A DNA stretch of 64,000 bases from Sphaerisporangium sp. TRM90804. GTDB lineage: Bacteria > Actinomycetota > Actinomycetes > Streptosporangiales > Streptosporangiaceae. The position numbers were made by a program, and so were the translations under genes. This document shows positions 55,810 to 64,000 of this stretch, one piece after another; within the stretch, counting starts at the first letter, position 1; each line of letters begins with the position of its first letter. Location: NCBI RefSeq assembly GCF_029846175.1, contig NZ_JARWAC010000023.1:1-64000 (forward strand). Direction: 5' to 3'. A model generated the notes under the pieces. The model was not told the origin of the DNA. It did no database searches and saw only the letters and a program-made list of their open reading frames with translations.

Positions 55810-56595
55810 ATGAGCCCCCAGACGCACGGTCGCTGGCCGCATGAGGAGTACTGCTCGGCCCTTGAGGCCGAGACCGCCCGGTTCGTGGAGGCGGTGCGCG
55901 GGGCCGACCTCTCCGCCGGCGTGCCGACCTGCCCGGGATGGACGCTCGTCAAGCTGCTGAAGCACGTCGGCATCACCCACCGGTGGGCCGAGCACATCGT
56001 GCGCGAGCGGGTGACCGAGCGCGTCAGCTCGCGGGACGTCCCCGTGGCCCTGCCCGACGACGACCGCGACTACCCCGGCTGGCTGGCGGAGGGCGCCCGG
56101 TCCCTGGTCGGCACCCTGCGCGCGGCCGACCCCGGCGAGCCCGTGTGGACGTGGGGGGAGGAGCGCGGCGCGCACTTCTGGACGCGCCGCATGCTGCACG
56201 AGGGGACGGTCCACCGGGCCGACGCCGAGATCGCGCTCGGGCGGGAGCCGCGCGTCGACGCCCGGGTGGCCGCCGACGGCGTGGAGGAGTTCCTGGGCAA
56301 CCTGACGGCGGCCTGGTGGCTCGTCGAGCCGCTGCGCGAGCTGGGCGGCGGCGGGGAGACGCTGCACTTCCACGCCACCGACGCCGCCCCCGGCGCCGGG
56401 GAGTGGACGGTCACGCTGGCCCCCGGGGGGCTCGCCTGGGAGCGCGGGCACGGCAAGGGCGACGTCGCCGCCCGGGGCGCCACCGGTGACCTGCTGCTCC
56501 TCCTGTACGGCCGCTGGAAGCCGGCCGACGCGCGCCTTGAGACGTTCGGAGACGTGAGCCTGCTCGCCCGCTGGCAGGAGAAGACCGCCTTCTGA
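55810..56595 (+). CDS. Maleylpyruvate-isomerase-family mycothiol-dependent enzyme
   Basis: 261 residues from ATG 55810. The DinB-like four-helix part has the metal site of the family: His in KHVGITHRWAEH, then Glu and His in RRMLHEGTVHRADAE. TCPGWTLVKLLKH is the usual opening of the MDMPI N-terminal domain; residues 185-255 form the C-terminal domain (GDLLLLLYGRWKPAD). Enzymes of this kind use mycothiol, the actinobacterial thiol. The substrate is unknown. Confidence 0.85.
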   Translation: MSPQTHGRWPHEEYCSALEAETARFVEAVRGADLSAGVPTCPGWTLVKLLKHVGITHRWAEHIVRERVTERVSSRDVPVALPDDDRDYPGWLAEGARSLVGTLRAADPGEPVWTWGEERGAHFWTRRMLHEGTVHRADAEIALGREPRVDARVAADGVEEFLGNLTAAWWLVEPLRELGGGGETLHFHATDAAPGAGEWTVTLAPGGLAWERGHGKGDVAARGATGDLLLLLYGRWKPADARLETFGDVSLLARWQEKTAF

Positions 56596-56673
56596 CGCCC
56601 CCTCGGGGGCGCCCGCCGTCGGCGCCGCCGCCCGCCCGAAGTTCCATCGAGGCTGGACCGGTGCTCATCAATG

Positions 56674-56740
56674 AGAGCACCGCTCTTGACGGCGGACTCC
56701 GCCATGGGCTTCACTGCTCTTGAGGGAGAGCGCTGCTCTC
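56674..56740 (+). promoter_or_regulatory. Promoter with two GAGAGC-type inverted repeats before the hydrolase gene
   Basis: AGAGC-ACC-GCTCT at 56674-56686 and the perfect GAGAGCGCTGCTCTC at 56726-56740 are two copies of one palindromic site. TTGACG (56686-56691) with TTCACT 18 bases on could be the promoter between them. Sites of this form are bound by TetR-type regulators. Confidence 0.6.
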
Positions 56741-56758
56741 GTCGGAAGTGGAGGCATC

Positions 56759-57571
56759 GTGGCGACCAGGTACCTGGAGACGGCGGGCGGGCGCGTCGCG
56801 TACGAGGAGTCCGGCCCGGCGGGCGGGCCGCTCGCGGTGCTCGTGCACGGCATGGGGGACACCCGCGCGACCTTCCGCCACCTGGCCCCGCCGATGGCGG
56901 CGGCCGGTCACCGGGTGGCGGCGATGGACGTGCGCGGGTACGGCGACTCGGGCACCGGGTGGCCCGATCACGGCGTCGCCGCGATCGGGGCCGACCTGCT
57001 GGCGTTGGTCCGCCACCTGGGCTCGCCCGCCACCGTGGTCGCCCACTCCATCGGCTGCGCCTCCGCGGTGTGGGCGGCGGCCGAGGCCCCCGACGACGTC
57101 GCCGGGCTGGTGCTGATCGCCTCGTTCTCCGGGGACACCCCGATCAAGGGCTGGATGAAGGCCGCATCGCGGGCGGTCGGCCGCAGCCCGGCGCTGTGGG
57201 GGATGTTCCTGCGCTCGTCGTACCCGAGCGGCGCGCCCGCCGACTTCGACGGCTACCTGCGCGAGCTCAGGGCGGGCCTGCGCGCGCCGGGCGGGACGGC
57301 CGCGCTGCGCGCGCAGATCGAGGTGTCGCTGTCCGGCGTGCGCGCCCGTTACGCGGAGGCGCGATGCCCCACCGTCGTGGTGATGGGCACCGCCGACCGC
57401 GACTTCGCCGACCCGGCCGCCGAGGCCCGTCTCATCGCGAGCAAGGTGGCCGGCCCCGCGGACGTCCGGCTGGTGGAGGGGGCCGGGCACTACCCGCACG
57501 CCGAGAAGCCCGGCCCCACCGCGGCCGCGATCCTCGCCGCCCTGGACGGGCGGGCCGCGGGCCGTCCGTGA
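56759..57571 (+). CDS. Alpha/beta-hydrolase
   Basis: 270 residues from GTG 56759 (GGAGG four bases upstream). Oxyanion region LVHGMGD, nucleophile elbow VAHSIGCAS (Ser), Asp in GTADRDFADP and His in GAGHYPHAEKP complete the triad in order. The cap is short. No neighbours suggest a substrate. A pair of palindromes lies in front of it, so it is probably under one-component repression. Closes with a strong hairpin. Confidence 0.87.
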   Translation: MATRYLETAGGRVAYEESGPAGGPLAVLVHGMGDTRATFRHLAPPMAAAGHRVAAMDVRGYGDSGTGWPDHGVAAIGADLLALVRHLGSPATVVAHSIGCASAVWAAAEAPDDVAGLVLIASFSGDTPIKGWMKAASRAVGRSPALWGMFLRSSYPSGAPADFDGYLRELRAGLRAPGGTAALRAQIEVSLSGVRARYAEARCPTVVVMGTADRDFADPAAEARLIASKVAGPADVRLVEGAGHYPHAEKPGPTAAAILAALDGRAAGRP

Positions 57572-57608
57572 CGGGGGCCGGCCCGCGGCGGCACTCTCGG
57601 TGGGAGAA

Positions 57609-57649
57609 GGCGAGGCCCGCCGCGCCGGGGGACGGCGGCGGGCCTCGCC
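57609..57649. terminator. Strong hairpin between convergent hydrolase and PRTase-like genes
   Basis: GGCGAGGCCCGCCGC and GCGGCGGGCCTCGCC pair perfectly over 15 bases around an 11-base loop; 38 bases after the hydrolase stop. Confidence 0.8.
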
Positions 57650-57803
57650 GGACGGGGGGCAGACCAGGGCGGGTTCGGCGGTCTTCGGGGCCGGGGGCGC
57701 GGGACGGTCGTCCAGCGGCCTCCGGATTCGCGACCGGGAGTGACCGCCGCGTGCGCCCTGGCGGGCGATGCCGGGGAGGCCGGGTGCGCGCCTCCCCGGC
57801 CGC

Positions 57804-58688
57804 TCAGGCCCCGATCACGCCTCTCCAGTCGGGCCCCAGGGCGTCCGCGTAGGCCGCGCGCTCGTGGGCCAGCTCGGCCCAGTTCCCGGGCTTCTCGGCC
57901 ACCGCCAGGCACTCGCTGCCGTGCAGGCCCCACACCTCCGCCTCCACCCAGCACAGCCCGCGGTACTTGCGCGGGGAGAACGCCTGGGAGCCGAAGTCCC
58001 ACCCGACCGCCGAGACCGGCTTGCCGGAGAACTGCCGGGCGGCCCGGTCGACGTACGAACGGCGGGTCACGGTGTCCGGGTGCAGGAACGACAGGTCGAA
58101 CCCGTTGAGCCCGAGGCCGAAGGCGGCCAGGCCGTACAGGAACGTCGCCCTGACGCCGCGCCGGGCGCAGAAGGCCGCGATCACCCGGGCCCCGCGCAGC
58201 GTGCCCGCGTACGACAGGACGTACAGCCGCTTCAGCGGGTGCGTCTCCAGGTAGCGGCCGACCGCCGCCACGATGGTGGCGCCGGACGCGACGGTGTCGC
58301 CGACGAACAGCGTCTCGGCGGGCGCGTCCAGGTGCGCGTAGGAGACCGCGACCCGGGCCGACTCCTGGGAGACGGCCACCCGCGAGGTGGCCACCAGGTT
58401 CAGCGGCAGGTTGCGGCCGAACCGCTGGGCCACGGCGTCGCCGAGCTGGTACACCAGCCCCTTGCTCAGGATCACCAGCTCCGCCGTGTCGCCGGGCCGG
58501 AACTCGTCGGCCAGGTGGCCGACGAAGTGGCGGCTCGACTCCAGGCACACGCGGCGGAACTCCGTCCCGACCAGGTTGCGGTCGAACAGCAGCCGCTCAA
58601 GCGCGGCGTTGTGCACTATGTACAACCGGGACGCGTCCGCGCCCAGCCTGACGAGTTCCGCCGTGCTTCCTTGCGCATCGAGGATCAC
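57804..58688 (-). CDS. Phosphoribosyltransferase-fold protein of a four-gene operon
   Basis: 294 residues from GTG 58688 (GGAGG six bases upstream). TLFVGDTVASGATIV (about 126-140) is the PRPP-binding loop of type-I phosphoribosyltransferases, with LVILSKGLVYQLGDAVAQRF upstream as the usual core strand-helix. The C-terminal third (VGWDFGSQAFSPRKYRGL and onward) is extra and unrecognised. It does not look like any salvage enzyme I know. Last gene of the operon, 18 bases after the deoxyribosyltransferase-like gene. Possible roles: making or breaking a nucleotide linked to the neighbouring enzyme. Confidence 0.7.
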   Translation of the reverse strand: MILDAQGSTAELVRLGADASRLYIVHNAALERLLFDRNLVGTEFRRVCLESSRHFVGHLADEFRPGDTAELVILSKGLVYQLGDAVAQRFGRNLPLNLVATSRVAVSQESARVAVSYAHLDAPAETLFVGDTVASGATIVAAVGRYLETHPLKRLYVLSYAGTLRGARVIAAFCARRGVRATFLYGLAAFGLGLNGFDLSFLHPDTVTRRSYVDRAARQFSGKPVSAVGWDFGSQAFSPRKYRGLCWVEAEVWGLHGSECLAVAEKPGNWAELAHERAAYADALGPDWRGVIGA

Positions 58689-58706
58689 CTGGGTCCTCCC
58701 ATCCGG

Positions 58707-59294
58707 TCATCCAGGTATTCGATCAAGCTGCCGCAGCGCCTCCAGCATGGGGACGTCGGCGGCCAGGACGTTCTCGCGGTATTCGTCGATCGCTCTGCTC
58801 AACCAGCCGGGGACCGGCGCCCTCTCGGGCGCGGCGCCGGTCTCCACCAGCAGGGCCAGCGCCTCGCCGGCGGCGTGGAAGTCGTCGGCGACGGCCGCCG
58901 ACAGCGCGGCCACATGCGGGTGGAGGTAGTCGTACACGACGGCTCCCCGGTATTCGAGCACGTCGGCCCGGTACTTGGAGTTCGGCGGCGCCACGACGAG
59001 CACGGGCGTGCCGAGGAAGCCCGCGACGGCCATCTCGACGCCGATGCCCAGGCCGCGCCGCTCCCGCGCGTCGACGATGACCGCCGTGGCCACCATGACC
59101 TGGTACATGTCGCGGCCGAACTGCCCGAGGGTGTTGCCGGGATCGGTGATCGGGTCGTCGGGGTTGAGGAACACGACCTCGTGGGGTGCGGCGCCCTTGG
59201 CGACCTCCATCCTCTCGGTGTCCGACCACGTCAGCTTCCGGTCGTCGCGGGAGCCTTTGGCGATCGAACCTGAGCAGTACACCGAAACCTTCAT
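58707..59294 (-). CDS. Nucleoside-2-deoxyribosyltransferase-fold protein
   Basis: 195 residues from ATG 59294 (GAGGG upstream). KVSVYCSGSI opens the Rossmann-like fold (Tyr6 in the place of the family's substrate Tyr), GRDMYQVMVATAVIVDA supplies Asp62 and Asp75, and GIGVEMAVAGFLGTPVLVV the expected catalytic Glu87 with the following gkPV strand. Members swap or hydrolyse bases on deoxynucleosides or nucleotides; related folds (SLOG, TIR) occur in conflict systems. The 55 C-terminal residues are helical. Operon position between an unknown protein and a PRTase-fold protein suggests nucleotide-based chemistry. Confidence 0.75.
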   Translation of the reverse strand: MKVSVYCSGSIAKGSRDDRKLTWSDTERMEVAKGAAPHEVVFLNPDDPITDPGNTLGQFGRDMYQVMVATAVIVDARERRGLGIGVEMAVAGFLGTPVLVVAPPNSKYRADVLEYRGAVVYDYLHPHVAALSAAVADDFHAAGEALALLVETGAAPERAPVPGWLSRAIDEYRENVLAADVPMLEALRQLDRIPG

Positions 59295-59362
59295 GGCGCC
59301 CTCGCCGTGCTCGTACGGACCGCGCCCGGCCCGGCGCGGGAAAGCGCCGTACGGGGGTGTGG

Positions 59363-60607
59363 TCAGGCGAGCGCGCGCGCCAGGTGGTCCGCCGCCGCGG
59401 CCACGTTGGACAGTGCGTCCCCACAGGTGGCGGCGGGACGGAAGTGCCGCGACCTTCCGGCGGCGATGATCGCGAGCCGGAACGCGTCGGCCGAGCCGTT
59501 CCCGTACAGCATCGACGCAATCATGCCGAACTCCGGGCTCGACCTCAGACGAATGAGCTCCTTCCAACTGGCCCCACGGTGGACGAAGTGGTCGACGCGC
59601 AGCCACCGGAGCGCGAGATCCAGGCGGCGGGACGACAGGACCCGGCCCCCCATGTCGTGCTCGGAGCCGTCCAGCGCGCAGGACAGCGGCCCCAGGGGAA
59701 GGTCGGTGAGGATCGCGGTGTCCAGGTCGCGCACGTAGCAGCGCAGGTAGGCGGCCGAGATGAACAGCCCCAGCAGCGTCCCGGCCTGCCCGGGCACCGG
59801 GCCGGGCAGCGTGCCCCGGACGAAGCGCGGGACGAACGCCTGGCCCTCCAGCCGTTCGGGGGAGCGCGACATGATCTTCTCCACGCGCCGGTACGGCCGG
59901 TGCCACGCGCGGGCGACCGCGTGCACGACGGCGGACAGTTCGCCCTCCGGCGCCAGCGCCTTGCCCCACAGGTCGGCGATGCCGTCGGTGGTCGGCCTCC
60001 CGTGCCGGGGATACCAGCCGAGATCGGGTTCGACGCGTACGTGCCGCGAGGCCGGCGACACGTACGGATTGGTCTCGTCACGGCGATACTCCCGGGCTTT
60101 CATGTCGCGGTAGGCCGCCAGTTCGGGGGTGGGCGAGGTATGACGCACCAGGCCCTCGTGAACGAGCGGATCTATGCATCCGAGAAAGACGTCGAACCAC
60201 GGCAGCTCGAACATGTAGGAGGACGGGAAAATCAGGTAGGCGTCGGTCAGCAGCACCGCCAGGCGGGTCGCGGTCAGCGCCTGGGTGAGCACCTGCGTCG
60301 CGTCGCCCCGGGCGACGTCCTTGCCGTAGCACGCCAGGATCTCCGGGTTGAGGTACTGGATGAACAGGGAACGTTCCCGCCGATAGCCGTGCGCCCCGTC
60401 CCGCGCCCACCCGGCACCGGCTCGCGGCCCCTGGAGCAGCACGTTCACGTACATGTCACGCGCCGCCGCGTACGCGTCCCGCCGCGCCACCACCCCCTGT
60501 CCCCGCTCCGGCACCTGCCCGGGCGGGTCACCGGGCCGGCGCGGCTCGGGGACCGGCGACGGCGGGCCCGGCACCGCGGGCGGGGGCGGCTCAGGCGTCA
60601 TCGTCAT
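59363..60607 (-). CDS. Unknown 414-residue protein of the four-gene operon
   Basis: 414 residues from ATG 60607 (or 60601), overlapping the upstream gene by 17 bases. The first 40 residues are Pro-rich, the remainder looks mostly helical: SLFIQYLNPEILACYGKDV, LTATRLAVLLTDAYLIFPSSYMFELPWF, a charged middle with EYRRDETNPYVSP, and LRVDHFVHRGASWKEL near the end. The hydrophobic stretches are moderate and do not look like membrane helices. No motif or family recognised. It is the largest protein of the operon and could be its sensor or scaffold. Confidence 0.6.
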   Translation of the reverse strand: MTMTPEPPPPAVPGPPSPVPEPRRPGDPPGQVPERGQGVVARRDAYAAARDMYVNVLLQGPRAGAGWARDGAHGYRRERSLFIQYLNPEILACYGKDVARGDATQVLTQALTATRLAVLLTDAYLIFPSSYMFELPWFDVFLGCIDPLVHEGLVRHTSPTPELAAYRDMKAREYRRDETNPYVSPASRHVRVEPDLGWYPRHGRPTTDGIADLWGKALAPEGELSAVVHAVARAWHRPYRRVEKIMSRSPERLEGQAFVPRFVRGTLPGPVPGQAGTLLGLFISAAYLRCYVRDLDTAILTDLPLGPLSCALDGSEHDMGGRVLSSRRLDLALRWLRVDHFVHRGASWKELIRLRSSPEFGMIASMLYGNGSADAFRLAIIAAGRSRHFRPAATCGDALSNVAAAADHLARALA

Positions 60608-61034
60608 CGTCGTCGGGGGTGATGGTCAGGTGCTGGTCGCGGCCGGCGGTGAAGGTGTCGCGACCCGCGGTGACCTGCTGCACCACCGTGTACGGCTCGG
60701 GGGACGGCGGCGGCTCGCCGAGGGCCTCGCGCAGATCGTGGACGGCGTCCTGCAGATCGTGGGCCGCCTCGGCGTGCCGGGCCAGGAACGCCGCGAGCAG
60801 GGCCGTCCACCGCTCGCGCTCCTCGGCCACCGCCTGTTCCGGCGGAGTGGGGGAGCCGTCGAGCCTTTGCTCGGTGGCCTCAAGCTGGTGGGACATGTCG
60901 GCCGCGTCGTCGCCGCCGTACCGCCGGAAGAGCGCGGCCAGCCGCGCCTTCGTGGCCTCCCAGGTGTCCTTCGTCATGGCCTGGACGAGGGCTGCTCCTG
61001 CTGCACCGGCCAGGCCGGCCAGAGCGGGGTCCAT
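60591..61034 (-). CDS. Small protein with AGRD-repeat tail, first gene of the four-gene operon
   Basis: 147 residues from ATG 61034; longer readings upstream are in AT-rich leader sequence. The N-terminus MDPALAGLAGAAGAALVQAM is a Gly/Ala-rich amphipathic or hydrophobic helix, followed by TKDTWEATKARLAALFRR and two long helices (about 50-110, EERERWTALLAAFLARH). The tail VTAGRDTFTAGRD (beta-type repeat) then an acidic run ending the chain. Tails of this kind recur in actinobacterial proteins near conflict-type ATPases and effectors, as far as I recall. Its acidic end is encoded by the same bases that hold the next start codon. Confidence 0.65.
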   Translation of the reverse strand: MDPALAGLAGAAGAALVQAMTKDTWEATKARLAALFRRYGGDDAADMSHQLEATEQRLDGSPTPPEQAVAEERERWTALLAAFLARHAEAAHDLQDAVHDLREALGEPPPSPEPYTVVQQVTAGRDTFTAGRDQHLTITPDDDDDDA

Positions 61035-61091
61035 CGCGACATCACCCTTCTCGTGCGATGAGGTTCCCCACTCGACCACTAATGCCAGGCT

Positions 61092-61232
61092 AGTATGCCG
61101 CCCGCGCTGACGCTTTTCCAGCGGTTTATAGATATTCCTCCGGCGGCTTTTCCCTTGGTCTACACCACTGCGCGGCACAACCCTCAGTTAGGCGCGCGGT
61201 AAACACCGAGATCGCGGTATCGGCGGGTTTAC
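61092..61232. promoter_or_regulatory. Leader of the four-gene operon with possible promoter and palindrome
   Basis: On the minus strand CATACT (61092-61097) is a possible -10 in an AT-rich leader. GTAAAC (61199-61204) and GTTTAC (61227-61232) with CCGA (61206-61209) and TCGG (61220-61223) form a nested palindrome; it could be an operator of the operon or the terminator of the small gene that ends at 61249. Confidence 0.45.
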
Positions 61233-61248
61233 GAGAAAACGGCGTGGG

Positions 61249-61467
61249 TCACGGATCGCGACGGCGGCGGGTCACGAGCAGCCCCGCGGCCACGAGCACC
61301 AGAACCACCGCCAGCGTCGCCACCAGCAGCCCCGGCCGCGCCACCCGCACCAGCCCGACGGCCGCGTTGCTCAATGGAACGGCGGCCACGACCGCGACCA
61401 TCGCCCGCATGATGCCGTCGCCCCCGGCGCGGCGCCCCTCGCGCCCGCCCGGCCGTCGTCGCGCCAT
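61249..61467 (-). CDS. Small two-helix membrane protein
   Basis: 72 residues from ATG 61467, fixed by a perfect AAGGAGG five bases upstream. A basic N-terminus (MARRRPGGREGRR) is followed by two hydrophobic helices (about 20-38 and 46-66, GLLVATLAVVLVLVAAGLLV) and a basic end. No family recognised. Same direction as the four-gene operon but separated from it by a 214-base leader. Confidence 0.65.
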   Translation of the reverse strand: MARRRPGGREGRRAGGDGIMRAMVAVVAAVPLSNAAVGLVRVARPGLLVATLAVVLVLVAAGLLVTRRRRDP

Positions 61468-61620
61468 CGGAACCTCCTTGGGTGAGGTGGTCACTCCGAC
61501 GAGTCTGACCCCCGCCACCGACAAAATCGGCTCGGCGGCCGGGGCACGGGCCTTCGCGACGACCGGGCACGCGCCGCCCGCGGGGCCGGAGCACGGCACG
61601 AGGATGGCCGCGGGCGGTCG

Positions 61621-61760
61621 GCGAGGGAGGTCAGGAGCTACAAGCCGCCAGCGAGGGAGGCCAGGGACTGTAGCCCGGCGGGGGGCGGTCAGGGCTACAA
61701 GCGGCCTGGCGAGGCGCGGTCAAGGGCTATAAGCCGTCCGGCGAGGGCCCCGGGGCCGCC
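61621..61760. repeat. 30-base degenerate tandem repeat
   Basis: Units beginning GCGAGG start at 61621, 61651, 61709 and 61741, with a shorter one at 61681 (lengths 30, 30, 28, 32). Each contains a GGTCAGGGCTACAAGCCG-like core. Ends 12 bases from the stop of the MmcQ/YjbR gene. Confidence 0.8.
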
Positions 61761-61771
61761 CGGAGAGGCGG

Positions 61772-62110
61772 TCAGGGGATGTACGCCGCGGCGACGCGCT
61801 TGGGGACGACCATGCGCCAGGCGTCCACCACGATCTCCCTCATCTCGGGCTCGTCGATCGCGGCCAGCCACACCCGCACCCAGTTGTACCGCTCGTCGGA
61901 CCGGATCGGCATGCGGAACTTCCCCGGCTCCGCCGCCACCAGCGCCGCGCGCTCCTCCTTGGGAAACGCGAACCCCATCAGCGTCTCGTCCGGAGAGATG
62001 CCGAGATAGACGATGCGCCCGACCCGGAAGGTCACATGATCGCGCACGACCTTCTCCTCGGTACGCGGCAACGTGACCGCCAACCGCCGCACATCGTCAA
62101 CCGTGACCAC
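61772..62110 (-). CDS. MmcQ/YjbR-family protein
   Basis: 112 residues from GTG 62110, with GGAGGGGG eight bases upstream. The pattern VDDVRRLAVTLPRTEEKVV, VTFRVGRIVYLGISPDETLMGFAF and RYNWVRVWLAAI is that of the YjbR-like fold (CyaY-like), often annotated as DNA-binding; direct evidence for that is thin. Single gene. Confidence 0.85.
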   Translation of the reverse strand: MVTVDDVRRLAVTLPRTEEKVVRDHVTFRVGRIVYLGISPDETLMGFAFPKEERAALVAAEPGKFRMPIRSDERYNWVRVWLAAIDEPEMREIVVDAWRMVVPKRVAAAYIP

Positions 62111-62749
62111 GCCGACCCCCTCCGAATACCCGCCCGGCAGGCGACCCGGCGCCTCCCACTGGACCGCCACGCTAGCCGCCCCCACTGACACCCCCCTGAC
62201 GCGCGCCACGCCGTCCCGCCGACGGGGACGATCGCATCCATGCCGTCTACCGGCCACGGCGAACCGCTTATTACCTGAGCGTGACCATTCAGACTCACCG
62301 CGTGACCGTTCACACTGGAAACATGAGCGGATCGGCGGACCCATCCGGGGAAGAGGCGGTCGACTACGACGCCATCCGACAGCGCTTCCCCTGGGTAGGC
62401 TGCTTCGACAGCGACATCACCGACGTGGCCACCACTGACCTCAATTCGTCGGCATGGCTCAGGGCCTCACCAAGATCAGCCCTCTGGCCTGGCCGTTGTA
62501 CGACCTGGCGTGACCGATCCGTCTCACCCGGCGCGCCAGGCGTGCCGGGTGAGACGGTGTGCGGGCGGCGGGCGGAATCTGGGTCGACAGACATGCCGCC
62601 GCCGGCCGGGAACGGCTGCGGCCTGCGGCCGGCGCACCGGGTCTCTGGCCGAGGCCGTCGCGCTCACCGTGTCACGACCCTGGGGAACTCCCGGCAAGGC
62701 CATCGCCTTCGCGTCACGGGGCGCTGAGGACGGATGGGCGTCGGCTGCG
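62111..62749. other. 639-base region without a confident gene
   Basis: A plus-strand frame from about 62281 (or ATG 62323) begins plausibly (VDYDAIRQRFPWVGCFDSDI) but loses coding character after 62440 and has no clear ribosome site. It could be a decayed gene, ended by the hairpin at 62519-62557. Nothing else is seen. Confidence 0.4.
62519..62557. terminator. Strong isolated hairpin
   Basis: CCGTCTCACCCGGC and GCCGGGTGAGACGG pair perfectly over 14 bases around an 11-base loop. It follows no confident gene, which suggests that one existed on the plus strand upstream. Confidence 0.65.
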
Positions 62750-64000
62750 TCAGGTGGTGCGGGTGAGGAGGAGGGCTACGTCGTCGTAGCGGTGGGGGAG
62801 GGCGGCGATGATGGCGTCGCAGCTGGCCTCCAGGGTGGCCCTGGGGGAGGAGAGGTGGCCGACCAGGGTGGCTATGCCGGTGTCGATGTCCTGCTCGCGG
62901 CTTTCGACCAGGCCGTCGGTGTAGAGGGCGAGGGTGCTGCCGGGCGGGATGTCGACCTCGGTGGTGCAGAAGGCGTGCGAGAAGTCGGGGTCGCCCAGGC
63001 CGAGGGCCAGGCCGGTGGGCAGGTCGAGCACCGAGGCGGTGCCGGCGGGATCGACCAGGATGGGCGGCGGGTGCCCGGCCCTGGACAGGGCGCAGGTGCG
63101 GGTGGCGAGGTCGACGGTGGCGTAGAGGCAGGTGGCGCACTGGATGGACTCCATGTCCTCGGCCATGAGATCGAGCCGGCGCAGCACCTCGTGCGGGGGG
63201 ATGTCGAACCCGGCGAAGGCCCGCACGGCCGCGCGGAGCTGGCCCATGGCGCCGGCGGCGACCGGGCCGTGGCCCATGGCGTCGCCGATGACCAGGGCCA
63301 TGCGGGTCTCGGACAGCGAGATCACGTCGTACCAGTCGCCGCCGACGGTCATGGCGCTGGCCGGGAGGTAGCGGTGGGCGACCTGCACGCCGGGCGGGAC
63401 GTTGAGCGTGCGCGGCGCGAGATCCTGCTGCAGGGCCTGCGCGGTGCGGCGTTCGAGGCTGTAGAGCCGGGCGTTGTCGACGCAGATGCCCGCCCGGGAG
63501 GCGAGGTCGGCGGCGAGCGTGAGGTCGTGGGCGTCGAAGGCCGGGCGGCCGGCGTCGCGGCTGAACGCGATGAAGCCCAGCACGATGCCCCGGGCCGTCA
63601 GGGGGGCGACGAGGAACGAGCACCGGCCGAGCGCGGCGAGCGCCGCCTCGCCGAGCACCTCGCGCAGCCTGAGGAGCTCGCGCGGCTCGAAGGCGCCGGA
63701 ATCGTGGACGGTGGGCGTGCCGGTGGCCATGCAGCGGTTGGCGGGGCTGCCCGGGCCGTAGGCGGCGATCTCGCCGGTCGGGAAGGCGGCCGGCCAGTCG
63801 TCGTGCCGGGGGGAGCGCGGGTCGAGCCCGTGGGCCAGGCGCCGGACGGTGACCGAGCCGTCGGCGGCGTGGTCGAGATGCCCGGAGTCGCGCAGCAGCC
63901 CCTCGGCCACGCAGATGCTGGCGCCGTCGGCGAACCGCGGCACGGTGACGGCGACGACGTCCTCGGCGGCTTTCACGGGGTCGAGCGTGCCGCTGATGCG
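62750..64000 (-). CDS. GAF-SpoIIE (PP2C-type) phosphatase, C-terminal part, cut by right edge
   Basis: 417 codons visible. The frame is open through base 64000: in-frame residues RISGTLDP precede a possible GTG at 63976, and RIxxTLD is the usual entry into a GAF domain, so the true start lies outside. Residues up to about 180 are the GAF sensor (FLVAPLTARGIVLGFIAFSR, AADLASRAGICVDNARLYSLER), followed by the SpoIIE phosphatase domain: GGDWYDVI, VIGDAMGHGPVAA, GHPPPILVD and LYTDGLVESR carry the metal-binding Asp and Gly residues. It dephosphorylates an anti-sigma-antagonist type protein in stress signalling. Relatives have further PAS/GAF domains upstream. Confidence 0.9.
   Translation of the reverse strand, partial: RISGTLDPVKAAEDVVAVTVPRFADGASICVAEGLLRDSGHLDHAADGSVTVRRLAHGLDPRSPRHDDWPAAFPTGEIAAYGPGSPANRCMATGTPTVHDSGAFEPRELLRLREVLGEAALAALGRCSFLVAPLTARGIVLGFIAFSRDAGRPAFDAHDLTLAADLASRAGICVDNARLYSLERRTAQALQQDLAPRTLNVPPGVQVAHRYLPASAMTVGGDWYDVISLSETRMALVIGDAMGHGPVAAGAMGQLRAAVRAFAGFDIPPHEVLRRLDLMAEDMESIQCATCLYATVDLATRTCALSRAGHPPPILVDPAGTASVLDLPTGLALGLGDPDFSHAFCTTEVDIPPGSTLALYTDGLVESREQDIDTGIATLVGHLSSPRATLEASCDAIIAALPHRYDDVALLLTRTT

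Follow-up and report, generated by a model that had tools for sequence, protein, structure and literature searches.

An NLR-free candidate variant of bacterial amyloid-type signalosomes in a narrowly distributed Sphaerisporangium operon

In a 64,000-nt stretch of DNA from Sphaerisporangium sp. TRM90804 (hereafter the window; contig C16, in a genome of 8.3 Mb; NCBI RefSeq NZ_JARWAC010000023.1), we analysed a minus-strand operon of four genes, A to D, and found that an 18-residue motif at the C terminus of protein A recurs near the N terminus of protein B in 10/10 operons, including one from another genus. This shared motif is a feature that a preliminary description of the operon had overlooked. 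An effector whose C-terminal motif is matched in the N terminus of the adjacent NLR is the layout of BELL proteins and BASS motifs given in passages of PMC7889193, PMC8086366 and PMC12261475, and passages of the first two attribute these bacterial amyloid NLR signalosomes to Dyrka et al. (2020, J Mol Biol). The operon is best read as a real, narrowly distributed unit that lacks the NLR defining the BELL/BASS type, and we lean towards the view that it represents a form of the bacterial amyloid-type (BELL/BASS) signalosome that does without an NLR. Searches of open-access literature listed no system with this combination of genes. It would thus be a concrete and small candidate for the question, left open in a passage by Daskalov and Saupe (PMC7889193), of whether NLR-independent bacterial signalling amyloids exist, and it makes that question testable.

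The A copy of the motif (QQVTAGRDTFTAGRDQHL, positions 60627-60680, minus strand) is a conserved segment that follows a variable linker, and the B copy (QGVVARRDAYAAARDMYV, positions 60446-60499, minus strand) is a conserved island flanked by variable stretches. Comparison of the A and B family alignments by hhalign yielded the motif as the sole reported match (E 1.9e-7, probability 93.7). When every A was locally aligned with the B of its operon, the best alignment took in the motif in 10/10 operons, and in eight of them 0-24 of 500 shuffles were as good. A motif matrix was then derived from A motifs only, nine in number after two identical sequences had been merged, and scored on stop-free six-frame 18-mers. 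With this A-only matrix, the B copy of the window ranked second among 104,316 18-mers, at 30.2 bits versus 7.6 bits for the next 18-mer, and the B copies of the nine other operons (278,886 18-mers) scored 30.8-52.4 bits versus 11.5 bits for the next. These results bear on a competing explanation, namely that the likeness of the two copies is convergent or compositional, the motif being rich in R, D and A, and that the four genes are merely co-inherited. The high GC content of the genome, the shortness of the motif, the lack of cognate co-variation and the weak single-pair scores of two operons (both given below) would suit this explanation; the A-only matrix test against six-frame 18-mers, the profile E value, the position of the motif at the same termini in every operon, that of the other genus included, and the recurrence of the arrangement at 7/29 loci of A homologues argue against it. 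We consider it very improbable and already disfavoured.

Gene A (60591-61034, minus strand) encodes a 147-residue putative BELL-type effector composed of an N-terminal domain and the C-terminal motif. Residues 4-20 (60975-61025, minus strand) form a Gly/Ala-rich hydrophobic segment, a candidate membrane-inserting helix, and in 10/10 A proteins the best 17-residue Kyte–Doolittle mean was 1.45-1.87, with a start at residue 4 or 5. A profile built from A and two paralogues revealed a widespread domain, found in 60/150 genomes of the family and 33/68 genera. Among the 29 A-homologue loci examined (L065-L068 and L079-L103), seven (L065, L082, L083, L089, L101, L102 and L103) carried a next downstream gene with a Walker A motif and an N terminus matching the C terminus of the homologue, at an alignment score of at least 45 and with 0/200 shuffles as good (1/200 for L082). 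Three motif types are used by these pairs: an AGRD-type motif in five loci, a QASDxAQQANLGQG-type motif in L102 (1-1887) and VIQVGGN/IIQIAGN in L103 (1-1854), the last of which we take to resemble the RHIM core. The L083 partner, which alone among the seven partners was scanned with Pfam, gave AAA_16 and NB-ARC matches, both below the Pfam cut-offs. The operon resembles the BELL/BASS type in that A, a small putative effector, combines a hydrophobic segment with a motif at its C terminus, in that gene B adjoins and overlaps gene A and encodes the same motif at its N terminus, and in that A homologues pair with Walker-A genes; it is unlike that type in that the receptor B is not a recognizable NLR and that two nucleotide-enzyme-like genes are added. 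Because of the A/B motif and the pairing of A homologues with Walker-A (NLR-type) genes, A is likely to be the effector and B the sensor; the preliminary description had suggested these roles, which are now backed by evidence that it had not used.

A PDB profile search of A returned nothing credible. A TipAS identity (E 2e-5, above the Pfam cut-off) was rejected, as the match occurs in only 2/10 A proteins and extends into the motif. At locus L067 (1133-5583), a TIR_2 gene, an nSTAND3-like gene (below cut-off), a third gene whose start looks membrane-like and the A homologue stand in a row; this A homologue carries a VIQAGRISG segment, and a GPVHTGSG-like stretch is common to the C terminus of the TIR protein and the N terminus of the NTPase. 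By eye, a similar third gene adjoins the A homologue in L079, L084 and L097. In L083 (1914-2432), a stop breaks the partner gene within the stretch read, which points to a pseudogene or a sequencing error.

Gene B (59363-60607, minus strand) encodes a putative receptor or scaffold of 414 residues that belongs to no known family. Walker A was absent from 10/10 B proteins, the window protein matched no Pfam family and no Pfam NTPase, no PDB profile match was obtained, and a profile comparison with six of the seven Walker-A partner genes revealed no similarity (E 0.095, probability 0.6%); one of the ten B members touched DUF6409 (Pfam, E 0.032). By these Walker A, Pfam and partner-profile comparisons B does not qualify as an NLR (NB-ARC/NACHT STAND NTPase), and, judged by sequence, it occupies the place of an NLR without recognizable NLR features. 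Structural modelling gives only a hint that B may be mostly helical. The family libraries were nearly silent on all four proteins of the window, and B would add an uncharacterized receptor family.

The two remaining genes resemble nucleotide-processing enzymes, and the preliminary description had given them a phosphoribosyltransferase (PRTase) fold (D) and a nucleoside deoxyribosyltransferase (NDT) fold (C). Gene D (57804-58688, minus strand; 294 residues, GTG start) encodes a probable PRTase-fold protein. Its phosphoribosyl pyrophosphate (PRPP)-type loop, residues 127-139 (LFVGDTVASGATI, 58272-58310, minus strand), has G130, D131, T132-G136 and T138 invariant in 10/10 members, so that GDTVASGxT is constant except for x. 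The canonical PRPP motif has an acidic residue first, where D has Gly130. The PADLOC retron family PRTase_III-A matched 6/10 D members (best E 0.0011), and at E 0.001 no PADLOC family was assigned to any of the four window proteins. A 489-residue protein from another Streptosporangiaceae genus (L069) matches D with 29% identity (E 8.3e-7) and has SKG of D replaced by RGG; it matches Pfam Pribosyltran at E 6.1e-5, its 22.8 bits falling short of the cut-off (26.3). No Pribosyltran match was found in 10/10 D members, and D is linked to that family only through L069. A PDB profile search of D gave nothing credible, and one with D and L069 together placed the phosphoribosyltransferase-related entry 1vch third (E 0.28). 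A Foldseek search with the low-confidence D model found no match that reached E 0.001, and its best rows were not PRTases. The PRPP loop of the preliminary description stands as an invariant element with Gly130 at the first acidic position, and the PADLOC and L069 links to the fold are both weak; D is probably a phosphoribosyltransferase, weakly retron III-A-like by sequence comparison. By eye, the long N-terminal extension of L069 (1064-2928) looks membrane-spanning and a NUDIX-like gene adjoins it.

Gene C (58707-59294, minus strand) encodes a 195-residue possible NDT/DNPH1-like enzyme, presumably accessory. Tyr6, Asp62, Asp75 and Glu87, the residues singled out by the preliminary description, are invariant in 7/7 C sequences. 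The fold itself is less certain: the three best PDB profile matches are Rcl/DNPH1 entries (2'-deoxynucleoside 5'-phosphate N-hydrolase 1) at E 0.13-0.41, and 7/7 members lack a Pfam match. C is collinear with Rcl over residues 1-106, and its Tyr6 aligns with Tyr and its Glu87 with Glu of GYELG; unlike in Rcl, Asp62 meets Glu and Asp75 meets Ala in the E 0.13 alignment, so that the Rcl alignment leaves the full active site of C unestablished, and the C-terminal part of C is without a match. C is perhaps DNPH1/Rcl-like; for DNPH1, hydroxymethyl-dUMP is given as a substrate in PMC10483697.

Both NDT and PRTase are named as retron effectors in passages of PMC12548924. The operon is similar to the retrons of those passages, with type III PRTase effectors and with NDT effectors, in having PRTase-fold and NDT-like proteins as defence-operon partners, and in the weak match of D to PADLOC PRTase_III-A; it differs in that both enzymes stand in one operon and are linked to a BELL-type protein, which would place these kinds of proteins in a different signalling context. 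An alternative that builds on this similarity is a unit akin to retron effectors that works in a toxin–antitoxin-like way or by abortive infection, in which D and C would be toxic, B would restrain them and A would be an adaptor that clusters B and not the killer. The PRTase_III-A matches, the naming of NDT and PRTase as retron effectors and the presence of B and D in the same ten genomes speak for such a unit. Against it, neither the four operon proteins nor the six flank proteins scanned in the window include a reverse transcriptase, Rfam gave no match at the gathering score in 56500-62500 (undescribed retron RNAs would escape), none of the four proteins reached a PADLOC family at E 0.001, C is absent from 3/10 operons, and the A domain behaves like an effector in its pairing with Walker-A genes. 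We regard this alternative as unlikely.

We next turn to the distribution of the genes, which argues for a conserved unit. In a sample of 200 genomes of the family, ten B loci were accepted, the tenth being from another genus (genome G137, locus L026); D was present in the same ten genomes and C in seven of them. A, B and D occur together in 9/11 Sphaerisporangium genomes (the source genome counted) and in the genome of the other genus, and gene order is constant across the ten loci (A-B-C-D in seven, A-B-D in three). The dedicated unit proposed in the preliminary description is thus borne out by co-occurrence of A, B and D in 10/10 operons, and its four-gene composition is not fixed, as C is absent from operons L022, L023 and L024 and was not detected elsewhere in these three genomes. 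Because the C-less operons form one clade (support 0.995) and both L025 and the outgroup L026 retain C, a single loss is the simplest reading, and C was probably lost once. The ratio of nonsynonymous to synonymous substitution rates was 0.15-0.50 in the pairs compared, being highest in A, which indicates purifying selection; this, together with recurrence in ten genomes, makes the operon more than a chance assembly. The ten orthologues and the three-gene minimal form offer natural material for study.

The ten-operon count leaves out a B match in G029 (E 0.001), which covers 47 residues of an uninformative frame, a D match in G087 (E 8e-4), whose frame by eye resembles leucyl-tRNA synthetase, and the distant D relative G061/L069. 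Distant C matches in four genomes (E 2e-4 to 6e-4) were likewise rejected, the frames being by eye regulator-like, binding-protein/reductase-like or otherwise unrelated. In samples of the phylum, B was found in 1/386 genomes and D in 1/396, each being the source genome, with the limit that the first look scored four (B) or six (D) candidates per listed genome and that distant relatives may escape. Scans of viral contigs revealed no relatives of B and D, and tblastn of plasmids gave no match for D.

On the A side of the operon, a YjbR gene is present in 9/9 genus copies and MDMPI2 in eight, the window being the exception; on the D side, GH18 and Tex (named by eye) are common to four genus copies, those of the window and L022-L024. 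In G005 and G007, YjbR lies near MDMPI2 and the operon is absent. The constant YjbR neighbour makes the operon look stably inherited and not part of a mobile defence island. Pfam assigned the six window flank proteins to GH18, MDMPI, alpha/beta hydrolase, YjbR and GAF-SpoIIE, with one lacking a match. A further alternative is an operon for nucleotide metabolism or salvage, in which C would free a base, D would add it to PRPP, B would be an uncharacterized metabolic subunit and the AGRD motif no more than a docking tag that keeps a complex together. The weak resemblance of C and D to nucleotide-processing enzymes, the vertical inheritance suggested by the YjbR neighbour and purifying selection agree with this possibility, which we nevertheless find doubtful: C is missing from 3/10 operons that retain D, the A family is found beside Walker-A and TIR genes, D has SKG versus RGG in its relative L069, and no salvage gene is among the six flank proteins scanned. 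Of the findings that would have told against the conflict or nucleotide-signal system suggested in the preliminary description, none turned up: the genes co-occur, the six flank proteins scanned include no salvage gene, and the two proteins that it could not name fall outside metabolic families. That the unit makes, senses or degrades a modified nucleotide is a hypothesis.

These data allow us to propose how the operon might act as a BELL/BASS-type signalosome without an NLR. A, a short domain that includes a hydrophobic helix, would serve as executioner and be held inactive until templating of its C-terminal motif. B would be the receptor, with its N-terminal motif copy as the template and the remaining ~340 residues as a switch that replaces that of the NLR. 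D, present wherever B was found, would most likely belong to the switch, as a protein that binds or makes a nucleotide, and C, as a DNPH1/Rcl-like N-glycosidase, may play an accessory part by releasing or clearing a base or nucleotide. On a trigger, B would assemble, its motif would nucleate A, and A would act on the membrane, leading to cell arrest or death. The amyloid state, the trigger and the sequence of events are our inferences, and so are the membrane action, drawn from the hydrophobic segment of A and the BELL analogy, the nucleotide chemistry, drawn from the weak fold assignments of C and D, and a role in defence, drawn from the homology of A only, to which the scanned flanks add no support. 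A more specific form of the proposal, which we put forward tentatively and hold to be rather improbable, is that the switch is a nucleotide-responsive B–D complex, in which the PRTase-fold protein and the DNPH1-like hydrolase would control how much of a nucleotide, perhaps one derived from modified phage DNA, is present, and B would translate this into a prion-like fold, thereby triggering the BELL-type effector.

Several points weigh against a BELL/BASS-type signalosome. The single-pair alignments of L024 and L026 are weak (41 and 68 of 500 shuffles as good), and an A motif is no closer to the B motif of its own operon (50.9) than to those of other operons (50.7; permutation p 0.47). The match of the partner profile A10 to the A family is weak (E 0.068), though it lies at the motif, and 22/29 A-homologue loci are without a partner at score 45 within the stretch examined. 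The BELL/BASS name for A and its motif is given by architecture, and amyloid formation and toxicity are here predictions from sequence. The scores behind the assignments of C and D are weak, and the AlphaFold models of B and D, each from a three-row alignment, are unreliable, with a mean predicted local distance difference test score of 36 and 40, respectively. Finally, no defence gene is among the six window flank proteins scanned, and the YjbR context looks stably inherited, unlike a mobile defence island, a location that the preliminary description had thought worth checking.

The anatomy of the operon given in the preliminary description was confirmed exactly by open reading frame coordinates: the four minus-strand genes follow one another with a 17-base overlap of A and B and gaps of 68 bases (B-C) and 18 bases (C-D). 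A promoter-like element on the minus strand (61092-61120), with TGGAAA (61120-61115), a 17-nt spacer and CATACT (61097-61092), precedes the start codon of A by 57 nt. It was picked out by aligning ten upstream regions and is well kept in 8/10 copies and weaker in L025 and L026; it is not among the promoters listed by a sigma-70 scan. The strong hairpin said to close the operon is real, being a GC-rich element 3′ of D (57770-57800, minus strand) with an 11-bp perfect stem, a 9-nt loop and no T tract; the region 57740-57810 folds at -47 kcal/mol (z -2.8; 3/200 shuffles as good), and a simple terminator scan did not list it. In the surroundings, a macro-domain gene (Pfam; L026 13775-14251) lies ~1.8 kb beyond the operon in the other-genus carrier G137, and the GAF-SpoIIE phosphatase gene of the window (62750-63976) has relatives at about the same place in L020, L021 and L023. 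Upstream of the operon, the window encodes a small membrane-like protein with no Pfam match (61249-61599), and by eye a similar start is present in L018.

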